Below are positions 11,955 to 40,344 of a DNA stretch of 64,000 nucleotides, piece after piece (within the stretch, counting starts at the first letter, position 1; every line of letters begins with the position of its first letter). Below the pieces are notes generated by a model. It saw only the letters and a list, made by a program, of their open reading frames with translations. It was not told the origin of the DNA and did not search any database. The translations under genes were made by a program, and so were the position numbers. The DNA is from Craspedostauros australis. Taxonomy: Eukaryota; Bacillariophyta; Bacillariophyceae; Mastogloiales; Achnanthaceae. Where the stretch lies: NCBI GenBank assembly GCA_026770025.1, contig JAMXDE010000064.1:62001-126000 (forward strand), given 5' to 3'.

Positions 11955-13400
11955 ATGCCAAATGTTACAGGCAAACACCTCCTTATTGCTGCTGTGAAAG
12001 GTGACTTGTCGGTGTTGAAGGAATGGAAGAAGCAGAACAAGACGCAGAATGAAGAAGTTGATGTCAACACGGTTAAAGATGGCTCTGGTTTCTCTCCCCT
12101 TCGTATGGCATGCATGGCCGGCCACCTGGAGTGTGTGAAGTACCTCATCGAATCATGTGGGGCGAACATCACCTGCAAAGGCGACTGTGGTTTCACTCCC
12201 CTTCATGACGCATGCTGCGCCGGCCAGCTGGAGTGTGTGAAGTACCTCATCGAATCATGTAGGGCGAACATCAACTGCAAAGGCGACTGTGGTTGGACTC
12301 CCCTTCATATGGCATGCATGACCGGCAATCTGGAGTGTGTGAAGTACCTCATCGAATCATGCAGAGCTGACATCAACCGCAAAGACAGCAATGGTCCCAC
12401 TCCCCTTCATGTGGCATGCATTTATGGTCAGCTGGAGTGTGTGAAGTACCTCATCGAATCATGCAGGGCTGACATCAACTGCAAAGACAACGATGGTGAC
12501 ACTCCCCTTCATCACGCATGCTGCAATGGCAGGCTGGAGTGTGTGAAGTACCTCATCGATTCATGCAAGGCTGACATCAACTGCAAAAACAACTCTGGTT
12601 CCACTCCCCTTCATGAGGCACGCTCCAACGGCTACCTGGAGTGTGTGGAGTACGTTGTTGCATCAGCCAATGCCAATAATGACATCCGACGCAACAACAA
12701 CAAAATCGACATCCAAAGCAACAACAACAAAGTCGACATCCAAAGTAACAACAACAACAACAACATCCAAAGTAACAACAACAAAATCGACATCCAAAGC
12801 AACAACAACAACACCAACATCCAAAGCAACAACAACAAAGTCGACATCCAAAGAAACAACAACAACACCAACATCCAAAGTAACAACAACAAAATCGACA
12901 TCCAAAGTAACAACAACAACACCAAAATCCAAAGTAACAACAACGAAATCAACATCCAAAGTAACAACAGCAACACCAACATCCAACGCAACAACAACAA
13001 AATTGACATCCAAAGCAACAACAACAAAGTCGACATCCAAAGCAACAACAACAAAATCAACATCCAAAGCAACAACAACAACAACAACAACATCCAAAGC
13101 AACAACAACAAAATTGACATCCAACACAACAACAACAAAATTGACTTCCAAAGCAACAACAACGAAATCAACATCCAACACAACAACAACAACAACAACA
13201 ACATCCAAAGCAACAACAACAATACCAACATCCAACACAACAACAACAACACCAACATCCAAAGCAACAACAACAAAGTTGACATCCAACACAACAACAA
13301 CAACACCAACATCCAAAGCAACAATAACAACAACAACATCCAACGCAATTGGTTCTGTTGTTGGCGCTGTTGGAAGGCTCCACGCACAGAGAATCAGTAG
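11955..13400 (+). CDS. Ankyrin-repeat protein with long Asn-rich tail
   Basis: 481 codons from ATG 11955. After a short acidic/basic N-terminus (about residues 1-40) there are six ankyrin repeats of 34 residues (about 41-240). Their consensus is ...G.TPLH.AC..G.LECVKYLIESC.A.INC, and they are very alike at DNA level, implying recent tandem duplication. From about residue 246 the protein is a minisatellite: a 9-codon unit NNNKIDIQS and variants with longer Asn runs, repeated to about residue 465. The last dozen residues and the stop come from an LTR-like repeat that begins at about 13366. Ankyrin domains mediate protein binding and the poly-Asn tail is presumably disordered. The partner is unknown. 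The ORF has no intron, so it could be a real fast-evolving gene or a fragment whose original 3' end was replaced. Confidence 0.7.
   Translation: MPNVTGKHLLIAAVKGDLSVLKEWKKQNKTQNEEVDVNTVKDGSGFSPLRMACMAGHLECVKYLIESCGANITCKGDCGFTPLHDACCAGQLECVKYLIESCRANINCKGDCGWTPLHMACMTGNLECVKYLIESCRADINRKDSNGPTPLHVACIYGQLECVKYLIESCRADINCKDNDGDTPLHHACCNGRLECVKYLIDSCKADINCKNNSGSTPLHEARSNGYLECVEYVVASANANNDIRRNNNKIDIQSNNNKVDIQSNNNNNNIQSNNNKIDIQSNNNNTNIQSNNNKVDIQRNNNNTNIQSNNNKIDIQSNNNNTKIQSNNNEINIQSNNSNTNIQRNNNKIDIQSNNNKVDIQSNNNKINIQSNNNNNNNIQSNNNKIDIQHNNNKIDFQSNNNEINIQHNNNNNNNIQSNNNNTNIQHNNNNTNIQSNNNKVDIQHNNNNTNIQSNNNNNNIQRNWFCCWRCWKAPRTENQ
12690..13352 (+). repeat. Coding minisatellite, AAC-rich 27-bp-type unit
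   Basis: About 660 bp of tandem units built from (AAC)n, AAA, (A/G)TC, GAC and ATCCAAAGC, mostly 24-30 bp long. All three plus frames and two minus frames stay open because the unit contains no stop in any register. This explains the antisense Leu-rich and Val-rich ORFs, which are artefacts. Confidence 0.9.
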
Positions 13401-19553: not shown

Positions 19554-22500
19554 ATGAGCGAGGAAGAGGAATTGAAAGACATCCCTCTGTCCAATCCGAC
19601 TATCAAGAGAGAAGAAGGTGCGAGTGAGACTCCATCACGACAAGAGAAGGAAGCAGCCGCGGCTACTGTCCTATCAAGCGCAGACGCAAGCGCGATCGAC
19701 GAGACCGAAGAAGAACGGTCTGCAAGACTACATCGTAAGGAGAAGAGTATTCTCAAGGCGATCAAGCAAGAGGAGACTGGTGTGACGAAGAGCATTCGCA
19801 CAGCCAAACAGGGTGGGAAAAGTGAGACACCACCAGGAGGAGAATTTGTGACGAAAACAATCTCCGCGCAACAACAGGCGAAAATCGAAGAATCGGTAAC
19901 ACAGAAACCGACGGAAATCAAGGGCGCGAGCGCACCAATGACGAAACAACGAACCAACATGGCGACATCAGCCAACATGAACAAGCGACGCATCAAGGCG
20001 CCGATGTTCAGCGGTGAACAGGAAGACTACAGCGCATGGGAGTCCCAAGCAAAGGCATACGCTCGTGCACAGAAGACGAGAGACGTGATGTTGGGCAAGA
20101 CCAAGGTGCCAACAGTGAGCAAGATCGCGGCAGCCACCGATGAAGACAAGGAAGCGATGGAGGAGATCTACGAGCTGGGATGCGACTGCTTCAGCGATCT
20201 GATCCTCATGATGGATGCAGAGAAGGGAAAAGGCAAGCAGGCCATCCAGTACATCAACCAATGCATCTCCGACGACTACCCTGAAGGAGACGCACACGGA
20301 GCGTGGAACGTTCTCGCGGAGAAGTTCCGACCATCCGATGCGGTGACGAAGATCAAACTCAAGCGCCAATTCAACAACGAAAAGATGAAGAGAGACACGG
20401 ACCCCGACATCTACATCACGCAACTCGAGAGTCTACGATCGCGTCTCCACGATGTCAAGTATGAGATCTCGGACGAGGAAATGATCATGCAGATTCTCAG
20501 CACGGTGAGCGTGGAATACAAAACCCACATCGTGAACTTCCAACACCAACTCACGTTCAATCCGGAACTGGTCACCATCAACACGATCAGAGGAGTACTC
20601 CGCACTGCATACGCCACGCACAGAGGAGGCAAAGCATACGTCGACGACTTCCAAGACAGTAACACGAAGAGCAACGACACCGGCTTCACAAGCACCGGTA
20701 ACTTCAAGGGTACTTGTCACAACTGTGGCGTGTATGGCCATAGATCCGCCGATTGCCCAGAACGCAAGAAATCGAACAACAAGAAAAACAACAACAACAA
20801 CAACAAGATGAACGGAAAGCGCAACAAGGGAAGCGGCTTCAAGGGCAAGTGCAACTACTGTGGCATCTTCGGACACCGCGAGGCGGAGTGCCGAAAGAAG
20901 AAGTTCAACGAGAAGAAGAAGGCCGACGAGCAGGCCAACACAGCAACACAAGGACACGACAAGAGCGGACACGAGATGGTACTCTCAGCAAAGGACATGC
21001 CACTCTACATGTTGGTGTCCGACGACTACATCGAAGACTCCTTCTTCGATAACTTCGCATGCGTCGGGAGTGACGACGAAGTACAGGATGATGAGATCAT
21101 CCCGGAGTGGCTCAGCGAGGAGCCCATCATCCACGAGGTGGATCCAAGACGCGAAGTGAGCTACGAATGCTGCTTCAACGCGCACGACCTGATCGGTTCA
21201 TACGGCGACGAAGCTGAGATGGACGAGGCCAACGATAGCGACATCGAAGAGGCCATGAGCGATGACGACGACGCCGACGAGGACGGCGCAGATGAAGACG
21301 ACGAGGCGAACCACGACGAATTGCCTCCTCCTCAAGCTGGGAGATACGAGAGAACGGGAACCTTCATCAATCAAGGCGAAACGCGCCGCGCCGCGGCGCC
21401 ACCTCCTCCAGCGGCGGGGAACAACAGATCGGGCATCTTCGACGAAGATGACAGCGACGAAACCGAGGATCATCCAGACGACAACTTTAATCCAAACGAG
21501 CGTGTCGTCTATCCAGCGAATATCGACTTCCCAGATATTGAGGATCCCAACAGCGTCGACTACCTCCTCCGTCACAGCACCATCCCGAATGCAACAGCAA
21601 CAGCATTGATAATCCAAAAGCAGCTCATCTTTGACGCCGTGATGGAAGCGGGGATGCGAGTGTTCCCAGGAACCACACGAGGAGCACTCATGCCAATATG
21701 GGTGAACATGATGGGATCCATCCTATCCGAGCACTTCGAATCAATCGAAGAGATCCTCGCCAACGCGATCATCATCAACCGCATACTGGAAGGAAACGAC
21801 TCGGAAACGATCCCAGAGACGGATCTGCATTACATCCTTGGAGGATGCATGCGCGTGCTCTTACGAGAGCGATCACGCGTCCACCCATACGATCCTGCCA
21901 CAGGATCTCATCGGAACAGTACAATTCCATTGGACTACACGCAACTACCCGATGACATGGATGACGGAGATCATCATCCTCCATACAACGAAGATGGAGT
22001 CCACGAAGACGACGACGACGGCAGCTTCAACGACGAGATAGCTGCGGCAGCCGTGGAACAACTCCACGAGCTGAGCACCAAGTACAAGGACAAAGTCAAC
22101 AAGGACACTTGGCTCGCCGACAGCGGAGCTTCGTGTCACATCGTAAATTCGGACGCCGCTCTCTTCAACGTGCGGCACATCAAGTCCTTCGTCCAAGTGG
22201 GAGACAGCACGAAACTGGACTCTCCCAAGATGGGATCCATTCGCTTGAAGGTCAAGCAACGAAACAACACTGGCCACGTCATCCGGCTCGATGATGTGAA
22301 GTACACACCCAAGATGGCGGTGAACCTTTTCTCCACGAACAAGGCTCTGTACAACGGTTACCAGCTTGGTAACAACGGCATTCTGATGGACATCATCAAC
22401 GGATCCGGAACGAAGATCGTGTTCGATCGAGTCTTCCCCACATCCAACGGATTCATCACGGGAGTGCAGATGCATCCCATCATGCCAACAGACGACGACA

Positions 22501-25500
22501 AGGCTTCAACAGCCATCGTCAAGAATCCATCTAAGGAGATCAGCGCGGTGAACCTGCACCGAATGCTCGGCCACGCGCCACTCGAGACCATGAAGCGAAC
22601 GGCCGCTCAATATGGATGGAAGATTATCGGCGAGATGCCGGTATGTCGCGACTGCGCGGTCGCGAACGCAAGAGTGAAGAATATTCCGAAGGCAACCATT
22701 CCGAGAGCAACTCGCCGTGGCGAACGGCTCTTCATTGACATTAGTTACACTAAACACATAAGCTTCGGAGATAAACGCTACTGGACCCTGATCGTGGACG
22801 ACTGCACGGATCACTGCTGGAGTTTCTTTCTCAAGAACAAAAGTGATCAACCAGGATACATCAAACGATTCGTCCAGACGATCAAGTCACAGACTGGTGA
22901 CCAACAGATCATCTTCCGAGGTGACAACAGCGGAGAGAACAAATCCACGGAGGATATTCTCATCGATGCAGGACTCAACGTGAAATTCGAATACACGGCA
23001 TCGAATACGCCGCAACAGAATGGCAGAGTAGAACGCAAGTTCGCGTACCTCTACACCAAAGTCCGCTCCATGCTCAACGGAGCACAGCTTGACGAAGAGT
23101 ATAGGCATGGCCTGTGGGCAGCGGCTGCTAGCACTGCTACCGCCATCGCCAACATCACCGTAGCGAAGAACCAGAAGGAGTCACCACATCGACAATTCTT
23201 TGGCAACGATCCACCATATGCGGATGCACTGCGCACGTTTGGAGAGGTGGGTGTTGTGAAGACTACCTACGGCGGGATTACCGCCAAGCTCAAGAATAGA
23301 GGAGAAGAGATGGTGTTCATCGGATATGCACACCAACATGCATCAGGGGTCTACAACATGTACAGACTATCGACCAAGTCACTCATCTGTTCACGAGACA
23401 TCAAATGGCTCAACCAATCATACGGACAGTTCCGTGGCTGGGCACCAGCACCAATCATATCCAATGAAACAGGAACAACGGACGCAGACGGCTTCACAAC
23501 CATCGGACGGAAGGGAGCAACGCCAAGGACGGCAACGCGTCAAACATCGGAAGCAAAGAGAGTATCTTTCGCTGATAGCAACAGATACTACATCCTATCA
23601 GACAGCGATGATGAGGATAATGAGGACGACGGAGTAGTGACTCAAGTAATCCGAAATAACGAGGAAGATCGGAGCGAATCCAATCATGAGGATGATGAGA
23701 TCCTACCATCCGGCGACGAAGTCGACGATGACACAGGCGTCACCCCTCCGAACACACCAGCGAGGTCTACACATGACACACCATCCAGATCTCCACCAAG
23801 CAAACCAAGCAAGCGTGACATAGCTAGAAAGGAGAGGATCCGACGTCACGAAGCACGAGGCAGGAAGGGAGAAGCTAATCCCAAGTCAACTGCAGGGAAG
23901 AGTATTCCCAGAGCTCTGCGCGAGCTCGCAGACTTCAACGAACGAGGTCGAAAGGAAGAAGGCTATGAGAGCGATTCATCATCCAATGAGGCGAGTGACG
24001 AACTCAGCGACGAGATGATCGACGACTCTAACAACGAAACTACAGATGATGAGGAAATCGAAGACGAAGATGAAGAGATTGAGATCACTCATCATAGCAC
24101 AACTGGATTATACGGAATGAATGCAATCATTACCGAATCACCAGCGATCGACATCGGACTGTCGATGCAGGACGAGAACAAGGAACCAGAGAAGCACATC
24201 GAACCTACAACGTTCGACGGAGCCTTCAATCACCCAGATCCTATCCATCAAAAGGGATATCGAGCAGCCATCAAGAAGGAGTTCGACTCCATGGATACAC
24301 GCAAGGTGTATAGCAAGATCAAACGAGACGCCATCCCACGCGGCCGCAGATGCTGCAAGTGCAAATGGGTCTTCAAGCTGAAGCGTGACGGCACACATCG
24401 AGCACGGCTCGTTGCATGTGGCTATTCGCAAGTCGCAGGAGTAGACTTCCAAGAGCATTACTCACCCGTCATCCATGACGTGACCTATCGGGTCATGATG
24501 GTGATCATGCTAATCAAGAAGATGGACTGCGCACTCGTCGATGTCGTAACGGCATTCCTACATGGAGACCTCGACGAGGAGATCTACATGAACTGTCCCA
24601 ACGGGATGGATCATCAACCAGACGAAGCCCTGACCCTACACAAGCCAATCTACGGGCTTGTGCAGAGCGCCAGGCAGTGGTTCAAGATGTTGGTATCGAC
24701 CCTCAAGAACATCAACTTCGAACAGAGCGCAGCAGACCCGTGCCTGTTCTACAGGAAGACGAACGAAGGAAGCATGATCGTGGCCATCTACGTGGACGAT
24801 TGCTTCTGTTGCGGAGATTCCAAGGCACTGGAAACCTTCCTGAAGGATATCCAAGGCAGCAAGTTCAAGGTGACAATCGAGCGTGGACTCGGAGACTACC
24901 TCAGCTGCAACATTGAACTGAACCATGACAAGACTAGAGCGACATTGCGTCAACCACATCTCATCCGACACCTCATCGAAGAGTTCGGAACCAAGGTTGA
25001 GAAGATGCAACGCTATGGGACACCGGGAACCCCGGGTCAAATCATCGTACGACCATCCGAAGATAACGGACTGCAGAAGGTCGGACCGGAAGAACATGCC
25101 GAATACCGCCGAGGCGTCGGTATGCTACTCTTCCTCATCAAGCACTCGCGACCAGATATCGCGAACCCTGTGAGGGAACTCTCCAAGGTATTGATCGGGC
25201 CCACCAAGGCCGCAATGAAGGAGATGTATCGGATCATCAAGTATGTGATAGATACAAAGGACTATGGATTGAAGATCCATCCAGCGCGTCCAGACGACGA
25301 CGGCTGGGACATGGAGCTCTTCTGCGATAGCGAATATGCAGGAGACAAGAACACAAGAATCAGCGTAGGGGGATTCATCCTATACCTGTGCAAGGTGCCA
25401 ATCCTTTGGCGATCCAAGGCACAGAAGGCCGTCACACTCAGCTCATCCGAAGCAGAATACGTTGCCCTTTCCGAAGCGGCAAAGGAAATCTTCTTCGTCG

Positions 25501-25787
25501 TACAGCTACTCGAAAGTGTGGGCGTCCCAGTGAAGACACCGATCAAGGTCCGTGTGGACAACATCGGAGCGATCTTCATCGCCAAGAACCCATCAACATC
25601 CCAACGATCGCGGCACATCGACGTGCGTCATCACTACGTGAGGAACATGGTAATCAACAAAACCATCGAAATCATTTTTGTCAAATCCGAGCAGAACACA
25701 AGCGACGGATTCACCAAGAACATCAAGGCCGACTTACAACGTGAACACGAGAAGTCGTACCTTGACACATCGAGAACATTCGAATGA
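19554..25787 (+). CDS. Ty1/copia Gag-Pol polyprotein, full length
   Basis: 2077 aa from ATG 19554. The Gag region (about 1-460) has two CCHC zinc knuckles: CHNCGVYGHRSADC near 388-401 and CNYCGIFGHREAEC near 432-445. An unusually long acidic spacer rich in Asp/Glu runs from about 470 to 840. Protease is at about 850, with the active-site triad in LADSGASCHI (Asp about 856). Integrase has the HHCC zinc site from about 1002 (HRMLGHAP ... CRDC). Its catalytic D1062 (DISY), D1124 (FRGDNSGE) and E1160 (NGRVERKF) give a DD35E pattern. An acidic linker (1290-1530) precedes reverse transcriptase, with YVDD at about 1746. RNase H (SSSEAEYVALSEA, SRHIDVRHHYVR) lies near 1960-2030. The absence of any stop or frameshift, and gag-pol in one frame, fit the diatom CoDi group. 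It acts in cytoplasmic virus-like particles, with nuclear integration. Confidence 0.95.
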   Translation: MSEEEELKDIPLSNPTIKREEGASETPSRQEKEAAAATVLSSADASAIDETEEERSARLHRKEKSILKAIKQEETGVTKSIRTAKQGGKSETPPGGEFVTKTISAQQQAKIEESVTQKPTEIKGASAPMTKQRTNMATSANMNKRRIKAPMFSGEQEDYSAWESQAKAYARAQKTRDVMLGKTKVPTVSKIAAATDEDKEAMEEIYELGCDCFSDLILMMDAEKGKGKQAIQYINQCISDDYPEGDAHGAWNVLAEKFRPSDAVTKIKLKRQFNNEKMKRDTDPDIYITQLESLRSRLHDVKYEISDEEMIMQILSTVSVEYKTHIVNFQHQLTFNPELVTINTIRGVLRTAYATHRGGKAYVDDFQDSNTKSNDTGFTSTGNFKGTCHNCGVYGHRSADCPERKKSNNKKNNNNNNKMNGKRNKGSGFKGKCNYCGIFGHREAECRKKKFNEKKKADEQANTATQGHDKSGHEMVLSAKDMPLYMLVSDDYIEDSFFDNFACVGSDDEVQDDEIIPEWLSEEPIIHEVDPRREVSYECCFNAHDLIGSYGDEAEMDEANDSDIEEAMSDDDDADEDGADEDDEANHDELPPPQAGRYERTGTFINQGETRRAAAPPPPAAGNNRSGIFDEDDSDETEDHPDDNFNPNERVVYPANIDFPDIEDPNSVDYLLRHSTIPNATATALIIQKQLIFDAVMEAGMRVFPGTTRGALMPIWVNMMGSILSEHFESIEEILANAIIINRILEGNDSETIPETDLHYILGGCMRVLLRERSRVHPYDPATGSHRNSTIPLDYTQLPDDMDDGDHHPPYNEDGVHEDDDDGSFNDEIAAAAVEQLHELSTKYKDKVNKDTWLADSGASCHIVNSDAALFNVRHIKSFVQVGDSTKLDSPKMGSIRLKVKQRNNTGHVIRLDDVKYTPKMAVNLFSTNKALYNGYQLGNNGILMDIINGSGTKIVFDRVFPTSNGFITGVQMHPIMPTDDDKASTAIVKNPSKEISAVNLHRMLGHAPLETMKRTAAQYGWKIIGEMPVCRDCAVANARVKNIPKATIPRATRRGERLFIDISYTKHISFGDKRYWTLIVDDCTDHCWSFFLKNKSDQPGYIKRFVQTIKSQTGDQQIIFRGDNSGENKSTEDILIDAGLNVKFEYTASNTPQQNGRVERKFAYLYTKVRSMLNGAQLDEEYRHGLWAAAASTATAIANITVAKNQKESPHRQFFGNDPPYADALRTFGEVGVVKTTYGGITAKLKNRGEEMVFIGYAHQHASGVYNMYRLSTKSLICSRDIKWLNQSYGQFRGWAPAPIISNETGTTDADGFTTIGRKGATPRTATRQTSEAKRVSFADSNRYYILSDSDDEDNEDDGVVTQVIRNNEEDRSESNHEDDEILPSGDEVDDDTGVTPPNTPARSTHDTPSRSPPSKPSKRDIARKERIRRHEARGRKGEANPKSTAGKSIPRALRELADFNERGRKEEGYESDSSSNEASDELSDEMIDDSNNETTDDEEIEDEDEEIEITHHSTTGLYGMNAIITESPAIDIGLSMQDENKEPEKHIEPTTFDGAFNHPDPIHQKGYRAAIKKEFDSMDTRKVYSKIKRDAIPRGRRCCKCKWVFKLKRDGTHRARLVACGYSQVAGVDFQEHYSPVIHDVTYRVMMVIMLIKKMDCALVDVVTAFLHGDLDEEIYMNCPNGMDHQPDEALTLHKPIYGLVQSARQWFKMLVSTLKNINFEQSAADPCLFYRKTNEGSMIVAIYVDDCFCCGDSKALETFLKDIQGSKFKVTIERGLGDYLSCNIELNHDKTRATLRQPHLIRHLIEEFGTKVEKMQRYGTPGTPGQIIVRPSEDNGLQKVGPEEHAEYRRGVGMLLFLIKHSRPDIANPVRELSKVLIGPTKAAMKEMYRIIKYVIDTKDYGLKIHPARPDDDGWDMELFCDSEYAGDKNTRISVGGFILYLCKVPILWRSKAQKAVTLSSSEAEYVALSEAAKEIFFVVQLLESVGVPVKTPIKVRVDNIGAIFIAKNPSTSQRSRHIDVRHHYVRNMVINKTIEIIFVKSEQNTSDGFTKNIKADLQREHEKSYLDTSRTFE

Positions 25788-27027: not shown

Positions 27028-27031
27028 ATAT

Positions 27032-27618
27032 CCCTAATGAGAAATTTGTCACTTCTTTTGGGTTCGCATCAACAGCTCTATTTGGCCTCCACGTGTAGGT
27101 GGTGAGATCGCATGCCAGACCAACATGGTCCTCCAGTGTGGTGGCTTCTCTCATTGTTTAACTGGAACCTTCTGGCGCAGGCAATTTCCGCCCCAAACAA
27201 GGCCACATAAGGAATTCAGAACCCTAAGGACATACCCCATAAATGAATTATTTATCGGCACGCCGGAACGCTTCGTGTATAGACACTGTTGAAAGACAAT
27301 GATTGGATGAAAATCGCAGACTTCGCTTGGAAATAGCACTGAAACAAGTTCTGCGAAGCATTGATTAGTCTCACCGCCGTCGGAAACCAACAGAAGCACA
27401 ACGCCAATCCTGGAGAAACAACAATCAAGAGTTTTGAGGACACAAAAGCGCCTCTCCGCGATAACGCTGTGTGGAAGTCGAAAAAACATTATCAGTACCA
27501 CCTCAGCTGGCCGACGCGAACACACGGGATGTGACAAATGTGGCACATCGATCCAAATTTGTCACATCGATGCGAAGTGCCAAATTTGTCACATCGGGGG
27601 CCCAAAATCTCATTAGGG
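27032..27618. mobile_element. Element E1: short non-autonomous DNA transposon (MITE-like)
   Basis: 587 bp with terminal inverted repeats CCCTAATGAGA (27032 onward) and its complement ending at 27618. ATAT (or TA, if the terminal T/A is counted in the element) lies on both sides. The inner ends carry degenerate copies of GTGACAAATTTGG. It encodes nothing convincing; the 131-codon minus frame 27151-27546 matches no family. The termini are of the same type as E2 and E3. A 19-bp block GTGGTGGCTTCTCTCATTG (about 27139) recurs in E3 (about 35910), so E1 may be a deletion derivative of an E3-like element. Confidence 0.65.
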
Positions 27619-27622
27619 ATAT

Positions 27623-27674
27623 CCATAATGATTTTGGCCTGGTACTGGCCTACGTAGCTTGCGTCCGGACGCAA
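27623..27674. repeat. E2 left terminal inverted repeat
   Basis: CCATAATGA at the tip, then CTACGTAGCTTGCG and the TTGCGTCC/GGACGCAA palindrome. It matches the reverse complement of 35112-35175 with a spacer of different length. Confidence 0.75.
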
Positions 27675-28199
27675 GCGGCGACTCAACGGACTCGCCCAAA
27701 TACGCTTTATGAGAAGCCGTTTTTTCAAATCCTCTTGCACTGGCCAGCTCGACTCACGACATGCCTCATGTCTTAAATTTATAATAATCGTTGCAGTTGT
27801 GGGAATTGAACAAACAATGATCATGCGTCGTGCGTCACCCTCCTTGTCGTGTCGCACCGTTGCTGTGATTTTGCATTTGCTGTCATCGTGGGTTGATGTT
27901 TTGCATGCACTCACGCACACCTGTTCCGCCAATTCCGTTGCTTTCACTGTTGCTCGTGGATACTCGCCAACGAAATCCACAACCTCGTCGTTTCTCCATC
28001 GCCACTCCACTGATCTTCCCATCACACACATCACTTCCCCATCTTCCTCCACATCAACACATGTTCAACATGCACTTGCAATCTGCCCATCCCACACTTC
28101 GACATGCCAACATTGCAATGACACTGGCTTCTTCTGCTGTTGCAAAACACAATTGAAGCATGCCTTCTTTCCAGTTCTCACAAAAAACAGCAGCAGCAC

Positions 28200-29190
28200 A
28201 CTCGAGCAACTTCCACCCCAGCGACGGACAGCATCATCAATGCGAGCAACTCACCAAACCAACAGCACCGTACTCGATCAACTTCCACCCCAGCAACGGA
28301 CAGCATTATCAATACAAACAACTCACCAAACCAACAGCAGCAGCACCGTGCTCGATCAACTTCCACTCCAGCGACGGACAGCATCATCAATGCTAACAAG
28401 TCACCAAACCAACGGCACCGTGTTCAATCAACTTCCACCCCAGTGATGGACAGCATCAATGCGAACAACTCACCAAACCAACAGCAGCATGCTCGATCAA
28501 CTTCCACCCCAGCGACGGACAGCATCATCAATGCTAACAACTCATCAAACCAACAGCATCATGCTCGATCAACTTCCACCCCAGTGACAGACAGCATCAT
28601 CAATGCGAACAACTCACCAAACCAACGGCACCGTGCTCGATCAACTTCCACTCCGGTGACAGACAGCATCATCAATGCGCACAACTTACCAAACCAACAG
28701 CAGCATGCTCGATCAACTTCCACCCCAGCAACGGACAGCATCATCAATGCGAGCAACTTACCAAACCAACGGCACCGTACTCGATCAACTTCCACTCCAG
28801 TGACAGACAGCATCAATGCGAACAAGTCACCAAACCAACGGCAGCAGCACCGTGCTCGATCAACTTCCACTCCAGCGACGGACAGCATCATCAATGTGAA
28901 CAAGTCACCAAACCAACAGCACCGTGCTCGATCAACTTCCACCCCAGTGACAGACAGCATCATCAATGCACGCAACTCACCAAACCAACGGCAGCATGCT
29001 CGATCAACTTCCACTCCGGTGACAGACAGCATCATCAATGCGCGCAACTTACCAAACCAACGGCAGCATGCTCGATCAACTTCCACTCCGGTGACAGACA
29101 GCATCATCAATGCAAACAACTCACCAAACCAACAGCAGCAGCACTGTGCTCGATCAACTTCCACTCCAGCGACGGACAGCATCATCAATG
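28200..29190 (+). repeat. Coding tandem repeat in E2 exon 1, about 66-78 bp unit
   Basis: About 13-14 copies of a 22-26 codon unit (ARSTSTPVTDSIINANNSP + NQQ/NQR-type linker). All plus frames and the opposite strand stay partly open because of the periodic sequence, giving spurious Leu/Val-rich antisense ORFs (for example minus 28559-29197). Confidence 0.9.
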
Positions 29191-32100
29191 CGAGCACCTA
29201 CGGGCAGGGTGTCAGCACTGGCGCATTCAGCATGCATAATGCAACACAGGACCCAAATCCACAGCCAGCCACAGAACCTGTGGATGGTGACATCCATCAA
29301 GTGTCCCAGAGTCCACCTCGACATATTTCAGTTGCGCCAAACCAATCCTTGATTGGTGTTGCCACTGGCCTCGGTGTATGCCTCAACAGTGGCGACGACA
29401 ACACCAGCAACAACAATGTTGACCACAACAATGCCAACACCAACTCCGACAATGATGACAATGGCAATGTTGGCTTCAATATTGACAGCATAAGCAATGG
29501 AGATGACAACGGTAATGGAGATGAAAATGGCAATGATGGCTACCTTGTCACTTTTCCTTCGCAGACTCTCCATGACAACAACGCCTCTGGAATCAAAACT
29601 ATGCCGATGAAGTGGGACCTTCTGCCTTGGCGTACAGCCAAATTCTCTGTCTCCGTCAGCACTGCACAGCGGCTTTGCCACAAGCTCATGGTGGCTGAGG
29701 TTCTTCAGATTCGTGCTCGTGCAGTACTCAACACCAAGAAACACAACCCAACCACAGATGACTTCACAAAGTTTGTCTTTGGAGACCACTCCATCATCTT
29801 CTCTTCAGCCTTTGGTCCAGCAGGGTTGGGCATGGGGTTCAAGAACTTTGTGCAGTTCATGGTTGGCTTCACAACTCAGGCATGCTTCAATCTGTCGGTG
29901 AAGGAGATGTACTCCACCAAAATTCTGCAAACTGGCAGTGGATTTCCAACCAGGGAGGAGTACATGCAGGCATGGGACCTCATTTCAGATGATGGTGAAG
30001 TACCAGAAAGTGACCGACCAACTTACCTATGGTTCACTCTGGAGAAGTGCTGCAATGAAGTCCTCGATCACATGGTGCTACAAAACATGACATCCGAGAG
30101 GTACATCACCCTTGACGATGACAAAGTCCAATGCGGAAGTCGTGGCAGCAAGAGCAACCTTCGCAGAGTACGACACATCCAAAAAAATCGGTTTGGGTAC
30201 GTGTGCGATGATCATCACAATGGTTGAGTTGGCCGTGTGTTTCGTTTCTCTGTGAAGGTCCAGTCAGTTGTATCCATACTCTCAACCTATTTTCTTTTCT
30301 TGCATTCCACTCTCCTTCTATTCTTTCTCAGCCTTGTTGCCAACACAATGGCATTCACCTGTTCGGGTATGCCATGTGGTCTGTTCTGGCTCAGGAAATC
30401 TCAAGGTGGAGACACAAAGTTGACACTGGATGCCATCAAGCAGCAGCTTGGGAAGGGAATGATGTGGCTGGAGGATGTCACTGTCTTATTCGATCGAGGC
30501 TACAGCTGCAAAGAGATAGTCAAGAACCTCATCGAAGTTGGAGCTGATATCCTCAGCACCCACAAGCATGACGGATACCTCCCATTTGATTTTGGTCAAC
30601 GTGAACGGAGACCGAAAGGTCAAATGGATCTTTGGATGAAAGGGATACCGTACGTTTGGATTGCTTCCACTGACAAGATAACAAACAAGGTATTGACATG
30701 CCATGCCATGAGGGACAACGGAAAGATGGTGGTTGGGGTTGAAACCAAGAGGGGTGGCTTTGAGTGGGACCTGACTCTTGTGAACTTTGCGGACGAGAAG
30801 CTGTACAACAACCTTGTCGACGCTCCTCCTGATGCAGACCTGAGGACGTCTTCCTTTCCCCAATACTTCGTGCCATTTGCCTACAACTATGGTACATCCC
30901 ATGCAGTGCAAGAAGGAGAGAGGAATTTGGCGCATGCTGATCATCTCTTCCTTGCAGCTGAAGGTGGAGACGAAAGACGAGATGCCATGACCCAGGTCCA
31001 CGTTGCCACAGAGGAATTAAGGCGCCGACGGGAAGCGGCCAAGGCAAGATGGTCGTCACACATCCACGACCTTCAGGTTGAGGGACTGACATGTGCCCAA
31101 CGTGACCCACTCTGGTTCATGCTACGGAAGTTCGCACTCACAAGCTCATCAACATACAAGCTCATTTCGACTATTCTTCAATCAGAGGAGTGGGTTGACA
31201 GAGCCAACATGAGCACCTTCGATATTGCAGCATGGAAGACAGTTGCAGAGTATCTTGGGATCGACCATGGCGCAAAATTGGGAGACCTTGATCGAACTAA
31301 GAAAATGCGGAAGATCAACGACAGGGCCCATTCGGTGTACAAGGCGCTGACAGAGAACAGCATCGACTCGGCTGCTTTGGAAGAGAAGATGCTCGACGCG
31401 TTGAGCAAACGTGCAGAATCGGTTCCTGACTCGGACAGTGCCACCAGTGCCTCTCATGAGGATGATTCAGCTCCAGGCAACACACTGTCGGATGAGCAGA
31501 TACTGCTACATGCATTACTCTGTGACCACAGTGTGTTGTCTCAAGCAGCAGCTGAGGAAGAAATCCGAGCATTGGTCGGGCTCTTCTATGGTGACAACAA
31601 CTCTCGTGGACTGGGCACGTTGCTATCAAAACTGAAGAAGATCCTACAAATGAAGTGCAAGTTTCATCGACGATACTGCCTCATGACTACAACAATGCTG
31701 AAATCAATCCACACCAAAAGATATCCAGCATCCAGGAGGGAAAAGATCGCTGCTGCGGACCTCCGGAGAATGCTGGTCAAACAAGACCAAGCACAGCCGT
31801 CCGCACCTGCGAACACTTCTCAGCCATGCAACAACAGGACGGAGTCGGAGGATGCAGGTACCAACAAATACCTGCAGGAGCTGCAGATGCGCCTCATGCA
31901 ACAGGTGCTGTCCTCCTGGTATATGAAGCCCCGCAAGGGTGAAGAGGGAGAACCAATCCAGCTCGGGTTAGACAACGAAGACCCTTTGATGGAAGAGGTG
32001 ATGACACATGCCAACATTTGTGGGCCCAACACTCGACTGAAAGCTGCATTCAGTGCTGGGCTGGTGAGGCATCCTGACCAGCCTTATGCTCGAGCATCAG

Positions 32101-34612
32101 TGGACTTTCTTGCAGTTGTGGGAGAATCTGCCAGTGAACTACAAGAAAAGGTGTTCGTGGTCGAAATGAAAACTCGAGCATCACCAAAGACAGAACTGGA
32201 CGAAAAGGAGTGGCATTCAAAGGCAAAACAACGACCTGGTCACCCAATCAACAACAATGCGTTCTTCCCACTGCAGGATGATGAGTTCAGAGCGGCTTTT
32301 TCAAGACCAGAGGAAATGATACAGTTGTTGCATCATTCATTTGTCTTTGGTGTTCCGAACGCCCTCCTTTGCATTGGTACGTATCTGAAGTGATATCATC
32401 ATTTCCCGTCCTTGCATGACAATCCACATCACTAACCTCCATCCTCTATCTTCACTTGTCATGAAAATCACCTCACAACATTGGATTGCAACGGGACGAA
32501 CTGTGTCACCACATCACAGGCGACACGGCAGCAAAACCAATTTGCACCATTGCAACCAGCTTCAGACCATCACTTCTTGCAGCCTACAGCAGGGTGCTGA
32601 AGGACCTCCACAAAATGGTTCTGGAATTCGCATACTCGGAAACTCCTGTAATGGGGGCGACGGCATCACCATCCTATGCATTGTTGACAAGATTTCTTGC
32701 TTCCATGTCGACACAAGCACCATTTCGAGGGTGTAACGAGGTCCTCGCATCGCTCACAGAGGACGACCTCATGCAGGAGGTACGGAAATGGCAAGCCTGT
32801 CACAAGCACCTGAAGTTTCCAGTACCCAAGGTGAAAACCTTCCTGCCCAAGATCTACTCCGTATGGAATTTGTTGAAGGGAGGCTCAGACATAATGACGA
32901 GGATGATGGAATCACATTCTCCGGACCTGCCCATCCCAACCATGGGCTGCACTGCCGTCTCACGACAGCTGCAAGTCATGTTCATGGCCATTCACAAGGT
33001 CAGCCAGCATGTGGATCCGAATCGGCCAGCAGACAACACTGACGTTATCGAAAGTGACATGCTCGGCCACTACAGGAACAGGGTGAATCAGCGTCGCAGT
33101 TTCCAGCAGACCATGGTGGAAATCAACACGTGCTTCCGGCACATGTTGCAGCGCCTATGCGATGATGACGAGATCCAAAAGGCTGAGGCTGATGGCAACC
33201 ATTCTGGCACTATATTGGTCCATTGCAAAAGGATCCCACACGGTATACCAAGGCTCTTCGAAGGTAATCCTCCAACAAATTCGAGTTCGGTACAACCAGC
33301 GGAACTACGAGACATCCTTCGCCTGAAGGCCACTCCAGATACCCCAAGACAAGGCAGGATACGTGCCAACATGAAGAAGAGAGAGCACATCCCAAGGAAG
33401 TGCGTCGCCAAACGAGGAACCTGCGTCGTTTGCAACATCGTGACTCCCTGGGTGTGCGCGGGATGCCATATGTTTGTGTGTGCACAGTCAAATGAGGAAA
33501 AGAGGGCGTGGATGGAGACACAAGGGATACCACCTACCCTGGCACTGTGCAATTTCCCTGTGAAGAATGTGGCAGCGGTGGTCGAGAACACATGCCATCA
33601 TCTTCTCCACCGCAACCCAACATTATGGTGTGCTGAAACCAACCTGGACTACACCAAGCACAGCACAAATGAGGAGGTCCAACAGAAGAAGGCAGATGCC
33701 CGGGCAAAGCGTGCTACCGCAAGGATCGCCCAAGAAAGAGCAAGGCTTGCCACGGCAATTGCTGCAACTGCAGAAGCTGATGCCGAAGATGCATTGCTTG
33801 CCCAGGCCTCTGCTGTTCCTGTCCATGGACTGAACAATACTGGTGCGAACATCTCAGATTCTACCGATGGACCAGATGAAAGCAGTGGTGTCATGGCGCC
33901 AGATGCAACCATGCAGATCATGGGGAGGAGAGATCAGGACGTCTACGAGGCAGGGTCAAGGAGAGAGGGCCCCTTTGTGGCCACTGCGGACGCTGTGGAA
34001 GAACTGGGCACTGACCTCCGCAGAAGCGAAACAACCATGGCACAGCAAACAAACAATGTGCCACCATCAATGGTAGACACATCGCTTCGACACGCGTCGG
34101 GCAGAGATGGAAACAAACGGAATGCACTGGAAGGAGACTTTGATTGCCAGTCAGTATCGACCAATTCAGCAGCCGGAGATGTACATGTTGGAGCAACTGT
34201 GGTGCAACGATCTGGTTCAAGACTTCGGAAGAGACGAAGAGGAGAAAGAAGGGGCGTCCCAGCAAGTTTGGGTCAGACGACGTGCGATGCCTCTTCTTCG
34301 ACATTGTCTGTTGGCACCGATGGTGACTTTAGAAATGGCAACAACCATCCTGCCACATCGAAAGGAACTTCGGGAGGAAGACGAACCGAGTATGGACCAT
34401 GTGACGAAGATGTGATTTTGGTGGATACGAGAAGAGAAGCCTCTGCCTCCGTCCATGTTGCTGCCAAGAATTCGACACCAAAGCCAAGCAGAGGTGCCAA
34501 TGCAAGAGATGGAAGTCCGAACAGACTATCACACACAATGAAGAGGGAACTCGCGGCAGCCAGGCAGCGTACGAGGAAACGAATGCGATCAAGAAATGAT
34601 AACTTGATGTAA
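28446..34612 (+). CDS. E2 transposase: piggyBac-like DDD core + YqaJ-like nuclease + Cys-rich zinc finger
   Basis: Model: exons 28446-30196, 30332-32376 and 32520-34612 (about 1,962 aa). The frame is open upstream to 28122, but 28446 is the first ATG. Introns of 135 and 143 nt (G|GTACGT...CAG) restore frame exactly; the second intron is at the same place in the E3 relative. Residues 1-250 are tandem repeats, followed by an Asn/Asp-rich linker. The transposase core has Asp at about 556 (YITLDDDKV), about 637 (VLFDRGYSC) and about 697 (WIASTDKIT). Its layout resembles piggyBac, whose first two Asp are 78 apart. A PD-(D/E)XK nuclease of YqaJ/lambda-exonuclease type follows near 1125-1225: LDNED, then SVDFLAVVG, then VVEMKTRAS. 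A Cys-rich finger at about 1560-1590 (RGTCVVC...WVCAGCHMFVC) recalls the piggyBac C-terminal CRD. The tail is Ala/Arg-rich and basic. It probably excises and inserts E-type elements in the nucleus. The nuclease's role is unknown. Family assignment rests on motif layout only. Confidence 0.75.
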
Positions 34613-35111
34613 GGATCCAGGAATAATGGAACTGTCATAAGATTAGATTTGCAAGGAACTCATGTGCCATGAGGAGGAGGAGAGAGGATGCACTGTTGTC
34701 GCCAAGTATTTGTGAAAAGCTGCACCAAAAGCACCAGAATCCGGTGCCGGGATTGTGAAGGAGACAGTGCCGAAAAACTGATGCATGATGAGAAGCACGA
34801 CAAGCATGTTGGTGGACGCAGGTACCAGACATCGAAATAGCAAGGTAGAATATGATTACCCCAGATCCCATGACGTCGAGAAAGCAAGACAGGCGCACGG
34901 AAAGGAACCCCTGAGACATGACCAATGACGCCGTGTTGCATCGCGAGGTTTTTTTTTGAATTCGCCAAATAAATGCGTTACTCGAAGGAGTCAGAAAAAA
35001 AACAACCCACTTTCGGGTTTCGGACCGAAATCGGGTTTTTTTTCTGCAACACGGGACATCGTGGAGGAACATGGGACTTAAGTAGTACAAGTGGTATTTT
35101 CGGCGAGCTTG
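34613..35111. other. E2 3' flank between gene and right TIR
   Basis: No gene. Contains A/T homopolymer runs (TTTTTTTT near 34950 and 35038) and presumably the 3' untranslated region of the transposase. Confidence 0.5.
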
Positions 35112-35175
35112 CATTTGCGTCCGGACGCAAGCTACGTAGAGAATGCGTCCGGACGCAAGAAAAACGTCATTATGG
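35112..35175. repeat. E2 right terminal inverted repeat
   Basis: Carries two copies of the GCGTCCGGACGC palindrome, GCTACGTAG and the tip TCATTATGG. Inverted counterpart of 27623-27674. Confidence 0.75.
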
Positions 35176-35179
35176 ATAT

Positions 35180-35385
35180 CCGTAAGGAATTTTTCGGGAC
35201 TGAGGAGTCCACTTACGGCTAAGTGGATTCCTCAGTCCACTTACCATTTTTGTTGTTTCGTAAGTGGACTCCTCAGTCCAGTTACCGTAAGTGGACTGAG
35301 GAGTCCACTTACGACCACAAAAAAAGTAGTCGAATTTCGCTCATCTGAGAAAAGACTACTTCGACCACCCCACCCTGTCACATTT
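35180..35385. repeat. E3 left terminal inverted repeat (about 200 bp)
   Basis: Near-identical to the reverse complement of 39650-39851. Contains at least three copies of the imperfect palindrome with arms GTAAGTGGACT/AGTCCACTTAC (best at 35287-35312). Confidence 0.9.
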
Positions 35386-35615
35386 TTTGGATTCTTCGTG
35401 TTGTTGCGTGTAAACTTGTGCACACAGCGATTTTGCATTGAGACGCACCTCCTCCGTTCTTTTTTACACAATAACAGCAATCAACACTGACTCTACTCTG
35501 CATTATATTGTCTTTTTCTACTGTTATGATACTGTTGTGCTACTGTTATGCTACAGTCATCCTTGCGAGCCTCTTGTGCGTGGAATACGTTGGTGTACAT
35601 AATTCGTATTGCATA

Positions 35616-38600
35616 TCATCGTTTCTGCTTCTTTCCATGCAGACCGTGAGTTATGACCTCTATATCTCTGCTCTGGATCCTGGCTTCGGCGGCTGCCTTG
35701 TGCGCAGCTTGTATTGCTGCTTCCAGATTCAGGACAGGCACCCTTGAGCTAATTCTTGTGGCCGTGTTTGTTTGATGTGCCTTGGCAGTGGTGGCTTCAC
35801 CGTCGGCGTTGTCATTGCTTTCGTTGCTCATCTCTCTTGCTATCTCTGTTACTGCATTTGTAGCTGTGGTGGTTGTCTCATCTGTGTTTGCGCTGATAAA
35901 GACGTTCATTGTGGTGGCTTCTCTCATTGATGCTGGGCCTTCACCTTCTCTACCCATTCGACAGGCTCCTTGTGCACAATTCAATGACATAAGTTGTGAA
36001 CAATGATTGCGTCCGCTCCTTTTGCGATGTTTCTTAATGCCATGGTTAGGGCAATGCCACATGTCATGAGCCACTCCTGTTTGTCAGCTTCGATGTATCA
36101 GCAAGCATACAAGTTGCATCCTGGACAGATCCAGTGTCTACACACTGAACAGGCAACACAGGTTCCCCTCACGTCTGGACAGTACCTTGCTGCATGCTCA
36201 CCCTGCCTCAATCATTTGGTCGTTTTGATCTCCTCCTTGGGATCCATCGTGGATAGGCTGGCAAGCATTCCTTTTTTGTTTTGACGGTTCTCGGGGCATC
36301 CCCGTGGCTGCATCTCGCCATCTTCGACGGCTGACCCGCCTGCTGGAATGATATCAGTGTTGTGGGTCGCTGTCTCCGTGCCTCCCTTTTGTTTCTTGCC
36401 CTTTCTTTCGTCTGCAGCCATGACTGCGAGCAACTTGCGCAACCGAGCAATGATTCATCCCATCAACTTGTTCAGGCTTCACTCATGATTTACTCTGCTG
36501 GGATACTGTTCGATGGTGCCAGTGTGGCCTGCTTCAATTTCACGCTCGGAGTGTGCCTCTGTTGCGTAGTGAATCAATCAATGCAGTGCCACAAACATGG
36601 TTTGTAGCTGTCAACCGACTGCTATGCAATGGATTGTTGCAATGAGTGGGGACGCTTTGTGCTGCTGGATGAGCTTTGTTGTTATGTCAGACCCACCATT
36701 CAGGCAGTTCCATACAGCACAGTTCAGGGGAGGAACATCTTCACTGGAGGTACTGGGAAAGCAAGAATGTTGTGGTGGGTTTGTCAAATCTTCTTGTGAT
36801 GGAATACACCATCCCCTGTGATGTTCCGCAGGTTCTTGCTTGCCCTGCAGAACTTGTTCGTCTTTGAGTTCAGCTTGAGAAACTCTGTATGGAGCGTCTT
36901 GGATGATTGCTGATCTGCCTCTGGAATTTCGGGGAAGGCAAACGCCAAGAGCAAATGGGATGCATCTTCAGGAACGTTCTCAGAATGATGCAAGAGGCCA
37001 AGGGAAAACCTTGTTCCTACAAGGCACAGGATGTTTCCCTTTTTGTCTCCTGTCACCCAATCGAGCGTTCATGTAAGTCAGTGGTTGTGGAAAAGGGATC
37101 CACAGTTGTGTGAGAAGACAGATGAGGTTGGTACGGAACAAGGTGAAGCCATTCGGATATGGAGAACCTGTGTTGCATTTGCCACAAGGCGCACTTACCA
37201 ATCGCAATCAGAGCTCCTCTCACACCATAGACACATATGCATGGTGAAGCACCTGAATCATTTCTTCATCTGCCCGGAAGAGTGAGCAATACGTTTCATC
37301 TTGTGCATTCAGATATAGACGGGTGCTAGTTGGGAAATTGTGCACATGCTCCACATTTCCGATGCGACTCCCCTTTCAGTTTTGTGTTCTGAGTTGTTCT
37401 CGTCTTCATCTCTACAATGAATACCTCATTGTGTGCATCATTGGTTGGATCCCCCACAATGCTCAGGAAATTGATGGAGGCACGTACATAGGTTTTGCTC
37501 TGTTTCCGGACGAGGCCAGCATGAAATGCGGCCTTGATGGTCGTGTTGATTCCACCCACATGTTTGCAGTTCATGGCTGCTCTCATCAGTAGTTCCTCGT
37601 TTGCATGTCCCAGACGTGTGTAGGCATAGGATTTACCATGCCAGGCCTTCATGAACCATGCCTGCAAAGCCGTCTTTACAAGCTGTTGCTGCAGTTCCAG
37701 CAACTGGGGTGATGCGGTACCATCACTTCCATTGCTGAGCACATCATTTTTGTTGTGTTCTCCTTGTGTATCAGTCTGGAGACTGGAGTTACTGTTCCTT
37801 GTTGCTGCTGTGGCTTAGTCTGCATTATTGGATGGGGATGAAGGATTGCTGTGCTCTGAGCTACCTCTATTTTTGCGTGCAGCTGTGCTATCATCTGGTA
37901 GGCATGCATCAGTGAATGCTGGTGTGTCTGCAGCCTCTGCTCTACTGGAAGCACCTGCATTCGACGCGGATGTGGCAGTAGTGGGTGGACCAGAGGCAGA
38001 TGTGCTCGATGCTGCAGTGTTGGAAGCTGGCGTGCCTGATGTGCAAGGGATTGGTGTGTTGAATGTGGACGATGTGGATTGTGAGGCAGGTGAGCCTGAA
38101 GTCTTGGGCACAGATGCTGCAGCTGTGGCTTCTTCAGTGGGGTGTGTGTTGCATGCCGAAGTTTGAAGATATGGAGGATTGAGCTGGAGATGAAGGGAGA
38201 GCGAAAGTGCTGGCAACTGAGGTTGGAGATGTTCAAGTCTGCCGAGCAGACAAAGATTGTCCTTGATGGCAGTGGACGGACTTTGTGCGCCTTGATGCTG
38301 GTGTGAGTCGAGATGGCCTCGTCCATCTAGAAGCAGATGATCTCGTGCTGTGCGTTGTAGATGTAGATGGAGGAGGAGCTGATGTGGCAGACATCAATGC
38401 GGATGATGTGAATGAAGGGGAGGCACAACAGCTGCATGTACTAGGTGCAATTGCATACCTGCCAGAGTTGCGGTTGATGCTGGCTGCAGCATCACTTGAC
38501 TGCTGGGTTGCAGCAGCCTGGACAACACTGACTCCCTTCTCATGGGCGATGCCATGCGGGTCCTGCAGTTGTTTGTTGTCTGGCTAGGAGATGGGATGGA

Positions 38601-39395
38601 ATGGTTTGCATTGGTCGAGGCAGCCATCATTGCAGTCTTGTAGAGGATGTCCAAGTCCTTTGAAAGCTGCTTCATGCACAGCCCTTGAAAACGGTTTGGC
38701 GGCATTGTGCAGTGCTTGCAATTTGCCTTCCCATGGGTGCTCAGGGTGAGGCTGAGCTTGTTTTGCAACGTCTTGGCTGGACGCTTGTTTCCGTTGCACG
38801 AGCGCAGACAGGTGCAGACTTTCTGCTGAGCAGTCATCCTCTGACCATTGCGCAACAGAGGCTCGTAGGTTGGCCTCCAATTTCAATGAGTTGTCTTGTT
38901 CATTTGTGAGCTGCTTGTAGTGCACCTTTGCATCAAGCAAGACCTTTCCCACAGCAACACAAACTCTACCGTGTTGGGATCCAGCATCTTCCATTGCAAG
39001 CCCATAGAAGCCACTCGTTCTGGTTCTGTCAGAGCTGGTTGTTCAACAGTTCCGGATGTGCCGGTTGCAGATGTGCTGGTTGTAGTTGTGTTAGTGTGAG
39101 CATCATTGGGGATGATGATGTTGGTGGCAGCAACAATGGCAGCAATCAGCATGGCTGCTGGTGCATTGTTGGCCACATGAGCATTGCCAACAGAGTAGAC
39201 TCCAGTATCGATGTTGTTGGCGTCAACATTGCTTTCGTTGTGGACACCAAGGATGTCATCATTGTTGTCACTGTCAAGATCAATTGGGGTATCAATAACC
39301 CAGTCTTCATATGAACTGTTGGTGTCATTGTCGCTGTGGTTGATGGTGTCTGCTATGTGCTCGATGAGGGATGCGATGTCAGGCAAAGTACTCAC
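35616..39395 (-). pseudogene. Decayed relative of the E2 transposase (nuclease and zinc-finger parts) in E3
   Basis: Read minus, the pieces in order are as follows. 39395-38883 is an acidic, Asn/Asp-rich N-terminus. About 38980-38600 is a helical stretch in shifting frames. 37742-37326 is the nuclease domain (HANEELLM...INTTIKAAFHAGLVRK...ASINFLSIVG...FIVEMKTRTT), aligned with E2 NEDPLMEEV...LKAAFSAGLVRH...ASVDFLAVVG...FVVEMKTRAS. The catalytic Asp is Asn here. At 37280-37195, EEMIQVLHHAYV matches E2 EEMIQLLHHSFV, but a base shift precedes GVRGALIAIG. An intron with GTAAGT occurs where E2 has GTACGT. 37056-36784 is TGDKKGNILC... . Near 36150 is the finger RGTCVACSVCRHWICPGC, followed by an in-frame TGA. 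These lesions make it a pseudogene. No DDD motifs were found, and the N-terminal part differs from E2. Confidence 0.7.
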
Positions 39396-39649
39396 GATGA
39401 AACAAGCTTCTTGAAGCTGGTGGGAACCTAAACAGTGTTATATTAGAGGAACATTTGATGATGAAAGACGTTGATGGTACTGAAGGGGACGAAAATTACG
39501 ATAAAAAGCTTGTGATTACACACAAAGTTGTTGTGTTACCGTCTACAAGTCTATTGAAGTCCAAGGATGCGGTTGACAACACGTAAATCAACGCGACAAA
39601 ATACGAAGCCAGCATCACAACCAGAACGCAACCGAGAGAAACAGGGAAT

Positions 39650-39851
39650 TTGGAGGAGGTGGAGTGGTCAAAGTAGTCTTTTCTCAGATGAGCGAAATTC
39701 GACTACTTTTTTGTGGTCGTAAGTGGACTGAGGAGTCCACTTACGGTAACTGGATTGAGGAGTCCACTTACGAAGCCCAAAAATGCAAGGGGGTCGTAAG
39801 TGGACTGGTGAGTCCGCTTACGAAAACGCCCACACAAAAAATTCCTTACGG
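39650..39851. repeat. E3 right terminal inverted repeat
   Basis: Inverted counterpart of 35180-35385, ending AAATTCCTTACGG and followed by ATAT. Confidence 0.9.
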
Positions 39852-40344
39852 ATATCTGGAGCTTCGTCCAAACTGGGATGGAGCACAGTCTCCACTAGAG
39901 GTCGTCGCACGCATTGGTAGATCGTACGAGCACAGCAGAGCACTCTAAAGTAGATGAAAGTAGAGCGTCCGTAAACTGTGGTTTCAAACCAACGCTTCGG
40001 TCACGCTCAGTTGAATCACGAATATTTTCCTGTCGCTCCGACCACTCCCAGAAAAGCAACCACCGATCGTACGTTGATCACGCTCTCGCATCTGCACAAG
40101 ACGCTGGCGTTATCGTAGACTTCATTCATCGATGGGTGCATGCTCGTGGTCCTACCATACTCGTACGTGCCCTGTCACTCCCTGCATCATCACAACGAAA
40201 ACGCTCTCTTTGTAGAGAGACAGAGGACAGCAGAGTGGAGTACTCAACTCGAAGCATTTGTTACTCTTCGGACAGGATTCGACGAGTGTCCTCGTATTAC
40301 AGCACGTATTGGTAGAGCCATCCACCACACATGCTCTTGGACTG

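Follow-up and report, generated by a model that had tools for sequence, protein, structure and literature searches.

E2 is a 7,553-bp mobile element (positions 27623-35175, ends set by comparing copies) in the 64,000-nucleotide stretch of the Craspedostauros australis genome that we analysed (contig JAMXDE010000064.1, positions 62,001 to 126,000; hereafter the window). Our best explanation, to which we give a probability of roughly 0.7, is that its three-exon gene encodes a piggyBac-related, ATAT-targeting transposase with an active YqaJ/lambda-exonuclease-type nuclease embedded in its catalytic core, and that E2 has recently been active as a cut-and-paste element. The main new claim is where the nuclease would sit, namely in the slot of the core that holds the insertion domain of piggyBac, and this depends on which aspartate is taken as the third catalytic residue. 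The proposal is built on parts that can be read in the DNA itself: the element ends, the ATAT duplication, the non-autonomous copies, the three-exon gene and the conserved motifs. All relatives described below come from the same genome (74.8 Mb, 90 contigs); scans of IMG/VR gave no confirmed relatives.

Joining the three exons (Table 1) yields 1,962 amino acids without a stop, as an earlier reading made from the sequence alone had claimed. The first intron begins after the second base of a Gly codon in NRxG, in the same phase, at 9/9 loci (the window and L019-L026), and the second begins after the first base of a Gly codon in xIG at 8/8 loci, L019 being unreadable there. All donors are GTAAG, GTACG or GTGAG, and an in-phase AG closes each intron at all seven of the nine loci whose acceptor sequence was examined. 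Because the donor codon and phase are kept across families that share only 27-39% identity with the window protein, we regard both introns as supported. Relatives with the same domain order, which the sequence-only reading had suggested looking for, are present: one open frame contains both D2, the predicted second catalytic Asp, and the nuclease in 8/8 families, the predicted first, D1, being in the preceding exon. These comparisons confirm, for the predicted protein, that a single chain combines a three-aspartate (DDD) transposase with a nuclease of the YqaJ type and, at the C terminus, a Cys finger. The extent first proposed, 28446 to 34612, stands as a reading of the gene, but the mobile unit is larger and the frame remains open upstream of the ATG at 28446, through a 72-bp minisatellite, so that the start codon is uncertain. 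Exon-1 open frames range from 385 to 1,213 amino acids across the eight copies read. The minisatellite itself varies widely in length among otherwise near-identical copies (the window and L009-L016).

The motifs on which the sequence-only reading relied (YITLDDDKV, VLFDRGY, IASTDK, NED, SVDFLAVVG, VVEMKTRAS and the Cys finger) all lie where it placed them, and the distance from D557 (LDDDK) to D638 (DRGY), given as near 80, is 81 residues. Its choice of IASTDK as the third Asp motif did not survive comparison. Asp at this position, D698, is kept in 0/7 relatives, which have K, T or N instead, and is therefore unlikely to be catalytic. By contrast, D1389 in WNLLKGGSD is invariant in 8/8 families, as are D557 and D638, and it fits best as the third catalytic residue, D3, when compared with YNQTKGGVD of piggyBac.

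To compare the core with piggyBac, we used a piggyBac profile made from six of the nine own-genome proteins found by PF13843 (three near-duplicates were left out) and a core profile of eight families that excluded the columns of the nuclease and the first 85 of exon 3. The two gave one alignment (score 42.4, P 2.9e-4, probability 40.5), and 0/150 column shuffles did as well (best 31.5). It covers, in order, D1, D2, the GT-R block, ST and GGVD, and pairs LDDDK with IDE/INE, DRGY with DNLF, the THK block with GTARR and WNLLKGGSD with YNHWMLGVD. In control comparisons, 38/150 shuffles equalled the match between nuclease and piggyBac, and 108/150 that between core and YqaJ. One of the own-genome piggyBac proteins, L057, matched piggyBat (3e-7) and Trichoplusia ni piggyBac (0.0068) in the PDB, and its GVD aligns weakly to the T. 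ni GGVD, the motif whose Asp is D447 (PMC7351741). These data lend modest profile support to the view that the core is a piggyBac-related DDD transposase.

Between D638 and D1389 lie 751 residues, and these include the whole nuclease. As described in PMC7351741, an insertion domain (372-433) splits the catalytic domain of T. ni piggyBac (263-457) ahead of D447; other DDE/D transposases that have an insertion domain carry it at the same place, and target DNA is contacted by residues of this domain in piggyBac. Provided that D1389 is D3, the nuclease of E2 would lie inside the catalytic domain, in the slot of that insertion domain. The evidence favours this placement, which rests on the third-Asp assignment, over a nuclease that follows a complete core. 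Thus, of the fusion in the sequence-only reading, the single chain of piggyBac-related DDD core, YqaJ-type nuclease and Cys finger was upheld, but not the simple succession of core and nuclease.

The nuclease, which is of a kind that serves phages as an exonuclease, shows the motif order W..R...TS, a G/N-E motif, SVDF, VVEMK and IQLLHH, and R849, S855, E1133, D1175, E1195, K1197 and Q1248 are unchanged in 8/8 families, although the nuclease parts of these families are only 31-38% identical to that of the window. We compared it with a profile of 11 exonucleases (lambda exonuclease, one own-genome gene and nine phage genes; the own-genome L070 was left out). When an insert of about 185 profile columns was removed, the first two matching patches joined, with a probability of 93.4 and P 2.4e-7 (0/150 shuffles as good). 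Profile support for the YqaJ relation is thus stronger than that for the piggyBac relation. The Pfam family PF09588 (YqaJ) matched none of the eight nuclease members, and in the genome it matched at two other places only, L069 (C25) and L070 (C37). L070 also seems to carry a long insert between motifs one and two. The domain is likely to be catalytic.

Nine places in the genome, including the window, match a whole 635-residue query at 94-100% (94-99% for the eight other copies), and many further relatives match at about 28-45% over this query. Against L014-L016, the most diverged of the close copies, the ratio of nonsynonymous to synonymous divergence (dN/dS) was 0.17-0.25 in the parts of exons 1 and 2 that encode the transposase, 0.22-0.33 in the nuclease, 0.31-0.40 in the D3 region and 0.67-0.86 in the finger and tail; for very close pairs the ratio is noisy, with some values above 1.

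The left end of E2 reads CCATAATGATTTTGG from 27623 and the right end reads ...TCATTATGG up to 35175, with ATAT outside both. We scanned the genome for left ends with at most two mismatches. Of the 69 matches, 30 were taken as loci. In seven of these no second end was in reach, and from the remaining 23 came 27 rows, or 24 distinct places once overlaps were merged, of short, non-autonomous copies with E2-type ends (629-748 bp). ATAT flanks both sides in 27/27 rows (24 places), the left ATAT being part of the search pattern and the right one not. One repeat carries a full copy and a short copy whose target sites are only GGTCT apart. The empty form of this repeat gave 40 matches, every one of which crosses both junctions, and the two of these that we read by letter both contain CACAACCATATGGTCTATATTGTG, with a single ATAT per site as against two when filled. 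The 4-bp ATAT is a target-site duplication; that it might be part of the terminal inverted repeat (TIR) is ruled out by the empty sites and by neighbouring elements that have one ATAT in common. E2 thus has TIRs, a target duplication of fixed length and non-autonomous derivatives, all marks of cut-and-paste transposition. In a distant family (the L023 kind, on C11 and C6; 30-34% identical to the window protein), both ends read ATAT-CCACAAGG in 2/2 copies.

The C-terminal finger is of the cross-brace Cys/His type, like the cysteine-rich domain (CRD) of piggyBac, with a putative zinc fold. Its first five cysteines are kept in 6/6 families readable there and CHxxxH in 4/4, and the finger profile alone scored 32.5 against piggyBac (0/150 shuffles as good, best 28.9); Pfam gave only weak, general zinc-finger matches. 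By eye, the fingers of L083-L085, which are of the same kind as the PF13843 elements L090-L092 (see below), look nearest to that of E2. The ends of the nine copies, the right read in all and the left in six (window, L009, L010, L011, L012 and L014), fall into two palindrome kinds, one like TTTGCGTCCGGACGCAAA (window, L009, L010, L012, L015 and L016) and one like TTTGTCTCCACAGRCAAA (L011, L013 and L014); left and right agree in 6/6 copies read. Exons 1 and 2 show only 1-2% difference between the two kinds, whereas divergence is strong in residues 1516-1963, the finger and tail, a block that accounts for 90 of the 98 exon-3 amino-acid changes of L011. L015 and L016 keep the finger and palindrome of the window although they differ from it in the tail and in other parts of exon 3. 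The CRD of piggyBac binds TGCGT/ACGCA (PMC8086355) and binds a palindromic 19-bp repeat as a dimer (PMC7351741), and the distant C11/C6 family has TTGCGT..ACGCAA palindromes with a different middle. Because the finger covaries with the palindrome kind and resembles the piggyBac CRD, it probably reads the subterminal palindromes (TTTGCGTCCGGACGCAAA in the window). A caveat is simple linkage, in which exchange of a whole block would produce the covariation. Synonymous divergence (dS) in L011 is 0.18 in the finger-and-tail block and 0.007 in the nuclease, from which we conclude that the block was swapped in. However, the 3′ untranslated region (34620-34919) has diverged little, and the left end, more than 5 kb away, has changed too.

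We propose the following mechanism. D557, D638 and D1389 would form one RNase H-like active site, as expected from homology, that would cleave DNA at the ATAT/CC junction and link the element with a new ATAT, much as piggyBac does at TTAA. The C-terminal finger would bind the palindromes, as the piggyBac CRD binds its palindromic internal repeat; homology and covariation both point this way. The YqaJ-type domain of about 420 residues, in the insertion slot between D2 and D3, would then be active on DNA held beside the core. Among its possible roles we tentatively choose, at somewhat less than even odds, the trimming or resection of the donor ends that flank the element, so that repair would be driven to restore the lost element by copying it from the sister; other candidates are a non-cutting grip on DNA, second-strand or hairpin processing, and cutting of the target. 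Whether two DNA-cutting centres in one chain couple excision to copy gain through built-in donor resection is more doubtful.

Several results count against the explanation that we favour. PF13843 (DDE_Tnp_1_7) matched neither the window exon pieces nor six core members up to an E value of 10, PDB searches with E2 (single-sequence and profile) found no transposase, and the duplicated target is ATAT, by flanks and empty sites, rather than the TTAA that is the hallmark of piggyBac; for the first and last of these reasons we speak of a piggyBac-related lineage and do not file E2 as piggyBac proper. Numerically, the link to piggyBac is weak. When the first half of the core alone was compared with piggyBac in an earlier run, 1/200 shuffles did as well. 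The exon-3 profile alone met the GGVD patch non-significantly (P 0.28-0.42), the weight of this match lying in its position and spacing, and in the whole-core comparison the finger appeared as a separate, non-significant second match (P 0.71). With its insert kept, the nuclease gave three separate YqaJ patches in the right succession, of which the best reached P 2.8e-4 and a probability of 40.8, and its dN/dS exceeded 0.5 against some close copies, where changes are very few (0.58 for L011, 1.16 for L012). Finally, the matches that HMMER found to Pfam DDE_Tnp_1 around DRGY in 2/6 members (8.8e-5 and 8e-4), which in themselves also count for our explanation, are just below or below the Pfam cut-off, and D730 in FEWDL is as invariant as D1389 (8/8 families), so that D1389 as the third Asp is not proven.

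The DDE_Tnp_1 matches and the invariance of D730 speak for an alternative in which the core is of a wider IS4-like DDD/E type that is not piggyBac-related, D730 is the third acid and the catalytic domain is complete before the nuclease, which would be fused C-terminally to it, much as the sequence-only reading had it; DDE_Tnp_1 is, moreover, the sole transposase family matched. We consider this rather improbable, as the alignment with piggyBac runs in order through GGVD with no shuffle as good, E2 agrees with piggyBac in its finger and in the spacing of N-x3-GG-x-D, and WDL aligns with no piggyBac catalytic residue. It is also possible, though unlikely, that the YqaJ-type domain has lost its cutting activity and acts only as an insertion domain for binding DNA, with a grip on flanking or target DNA. 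The contacts that the piggyBac insertion domain makes with target DNA (PMC7351741), in the slot that the E2 nuclease seems to occupy, agree with such a role, but E1133, D1175, E1195 and K1197 are unchanged across all eight families despite their divergence. That the frames belong to three separate genes, or are strung together by chance, is highly improbable. The one-protein reading does rest on sequence, and both introns contain in-frame stops; against this stand the single frame shared by D2 and the nuclease, with D1 in the exon before it, the donor codon and phase kept across families, and the eight other close copies, which have no stop in their aligned coding sequence in the window's frame (exon 1 has a one-base gap in both L012 and L015 and is missing from L013).

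Searches with single sequences of the E2 exons against Pfam and the PDB gave no useful match. PDB profile matches were to ankyrin and other chance sequences and were dismissed, as were Pfam matches to HindIII, T1RH-like, Endonuc_Holl, zf-HIT, B-box and similar families, which were under the cut-off and mostly in single members.

Compared with the piggyBac superfamily (T. ni piggyBac, piggyBat; PF13843), E2 has D1, D2, the GT-R block, N-x3-GG-x-D with the putative D3 and a C-terminal Cys/His finger in the same order, together with a 4-bp palindromic target and palindromic repeats near the ends with TGCGT/ACGCA. The TIR of piggyBac is short and starts with CC, and so does that of E2. E2 differs in its ATAT target, the nuclease before the putative D3, LDDDK and DRGY in place of IDE and DNxF, the lack of a PF13843 match, its two introns and up to four palindromes at one end. 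Three own-genome PF13843 elements, L090, L091 and L092, have left ends GTGCCTCAAAG... preceded by CCTA, ACTA and GCGA, not TTAA. With the YqaJ/lambda exonuclease family (PF09588), the E2 nuclease shares the W..R...TS, G..E, D...ExK and Q motifs in order; it differs in the long insert after TS, in being embedded in a transposase and in falling below Pfam detection. ISL2EU (PHIS) transposons carry a YqaJ domain as a second open reading frame beside a DDE/HTH/THAP transposase, in a role that the authors call unknown (PMC4482050), whereas E2 has one chain with a DDD core and an ATAT target, the nuclease being in the same frame as D2 in 8/8 families. KolobokP and KolobokD are likewise eukaryotic transposons with an acquired extra nuclease (His-Me finger; DEDDh), but they belong to another superfamily, use other nuclease folds and are described as having a small nuclease alongside the transposase (PMC9587614). 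Among the titles and abstracts listed in searches of an open-access library, which covered neither Repbase nor eukaryotic protein databases, none dealt with a fusion of a YqaJ nuclease with a piggyBac-type transposase.

Insertion domains of DDE/D transposases share a single position in the fold, where they contribute to holding flank and target DNA. If our placement is right, a nuclease as insertion domain would be a natural coupling of excision to end processing, and if both parts work, E2 would encode an unusual, two-bladed transposase. Such an insertion domain would also suggest, for the free-standing YqaJ protein of ISL2EU, the one whose role its authors call unknown (PMC4482050), a function that can be tested. 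Through the covariation of finger and palindrome, end recognition becomes directly testable, and a relative that targets ATAT broadens the known target choice near piggyBac. Since one genome holds several families and nearly identical copies, activity may be testable.

Table 1 Features of E2 and its surroundings (window positions)
Feature	Positions	Strand	Remarks
Left ATAT target-site copy	27619-27622		Common to E2 and the short element 27032-27618; duplication status from empty sites
Left TIR	27623-27637	+	Perfect 9-bp part is CCATAATGA
Left subterminal palindrome	27659-27674	.	TTGCGTCCGGACGCAA; probable CRD site
72-bp in-frame minisatellite	28188-29209	+	24-residue units; near N terminus
Exon 1	28446-30196	+	First in-frame ATG at 28446; D1, D557 (30114-30116), in ITLDDDK near exon end
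Intron 1	30197-30331	+	135 nt, GT..AG, phase 2
Exon 2	30332-32376	+	D2, D638 (30492-30494, FDRGY); THK block, WDL block and entire nuclease; one open frame
YqaJ/lambda-exonuclease-type nuclease	31086-32376	+	Residues 836 to about 1258; R849, S855, E1133, D1175, E1195, K1197, Q1248
Intron 2	32377-32519	+	143 nt, GT..AG, phase 1
Exon 3	32520-34612	+	Predicted D3, D1389 (32888-32890, WNLLKGGSD); CRD; basic tail
C-terminal Cys/His finger, piggyBac-CRD-like	33416-33610	+	CxxC-x7-CxxC-x4-C...CHxxxH
Right subterminal palindrome	35115-35130	.	TTGCGTCCGGACGCAA
Second right-end palindrome	35143-35158	.	ATGCGTCCGGACGCAA
Right TIR	35161-35175	-	...TCATTATGG
Right ATAT target-site copy	35176-35179		Common to E2 and next element, E3
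E3	35180-39851	-	TIR CCGTAAGG; ATAT at 39852-39855; decayed relative, same superfamily

E2 is the middle one of three elements that abut with single common ATATs. The short element on its left is 587 bp long (27028-27622 with target sites) and has ends ATAT-CCCTAATG. E3, on its right, matches family L021 at 52-78% in seven separate pieces; as it matches only in such broken pieces, a working gene is ruled out. E3 has palindromes of its own (CGTAAGTGGACTGAGGAGTCCACTTACG). Elsewhere in the window, an unbroken frame of 2,077 residues (19554-25787) looks by eye like a Ty1/copia polyprotein, with CCHC knuckles, integrase and reverse transcriptase, and positions 11955-13400 encode a 481-residue ankyrin-repeat protein (Pfam Ank_4, E 1.4e-71).

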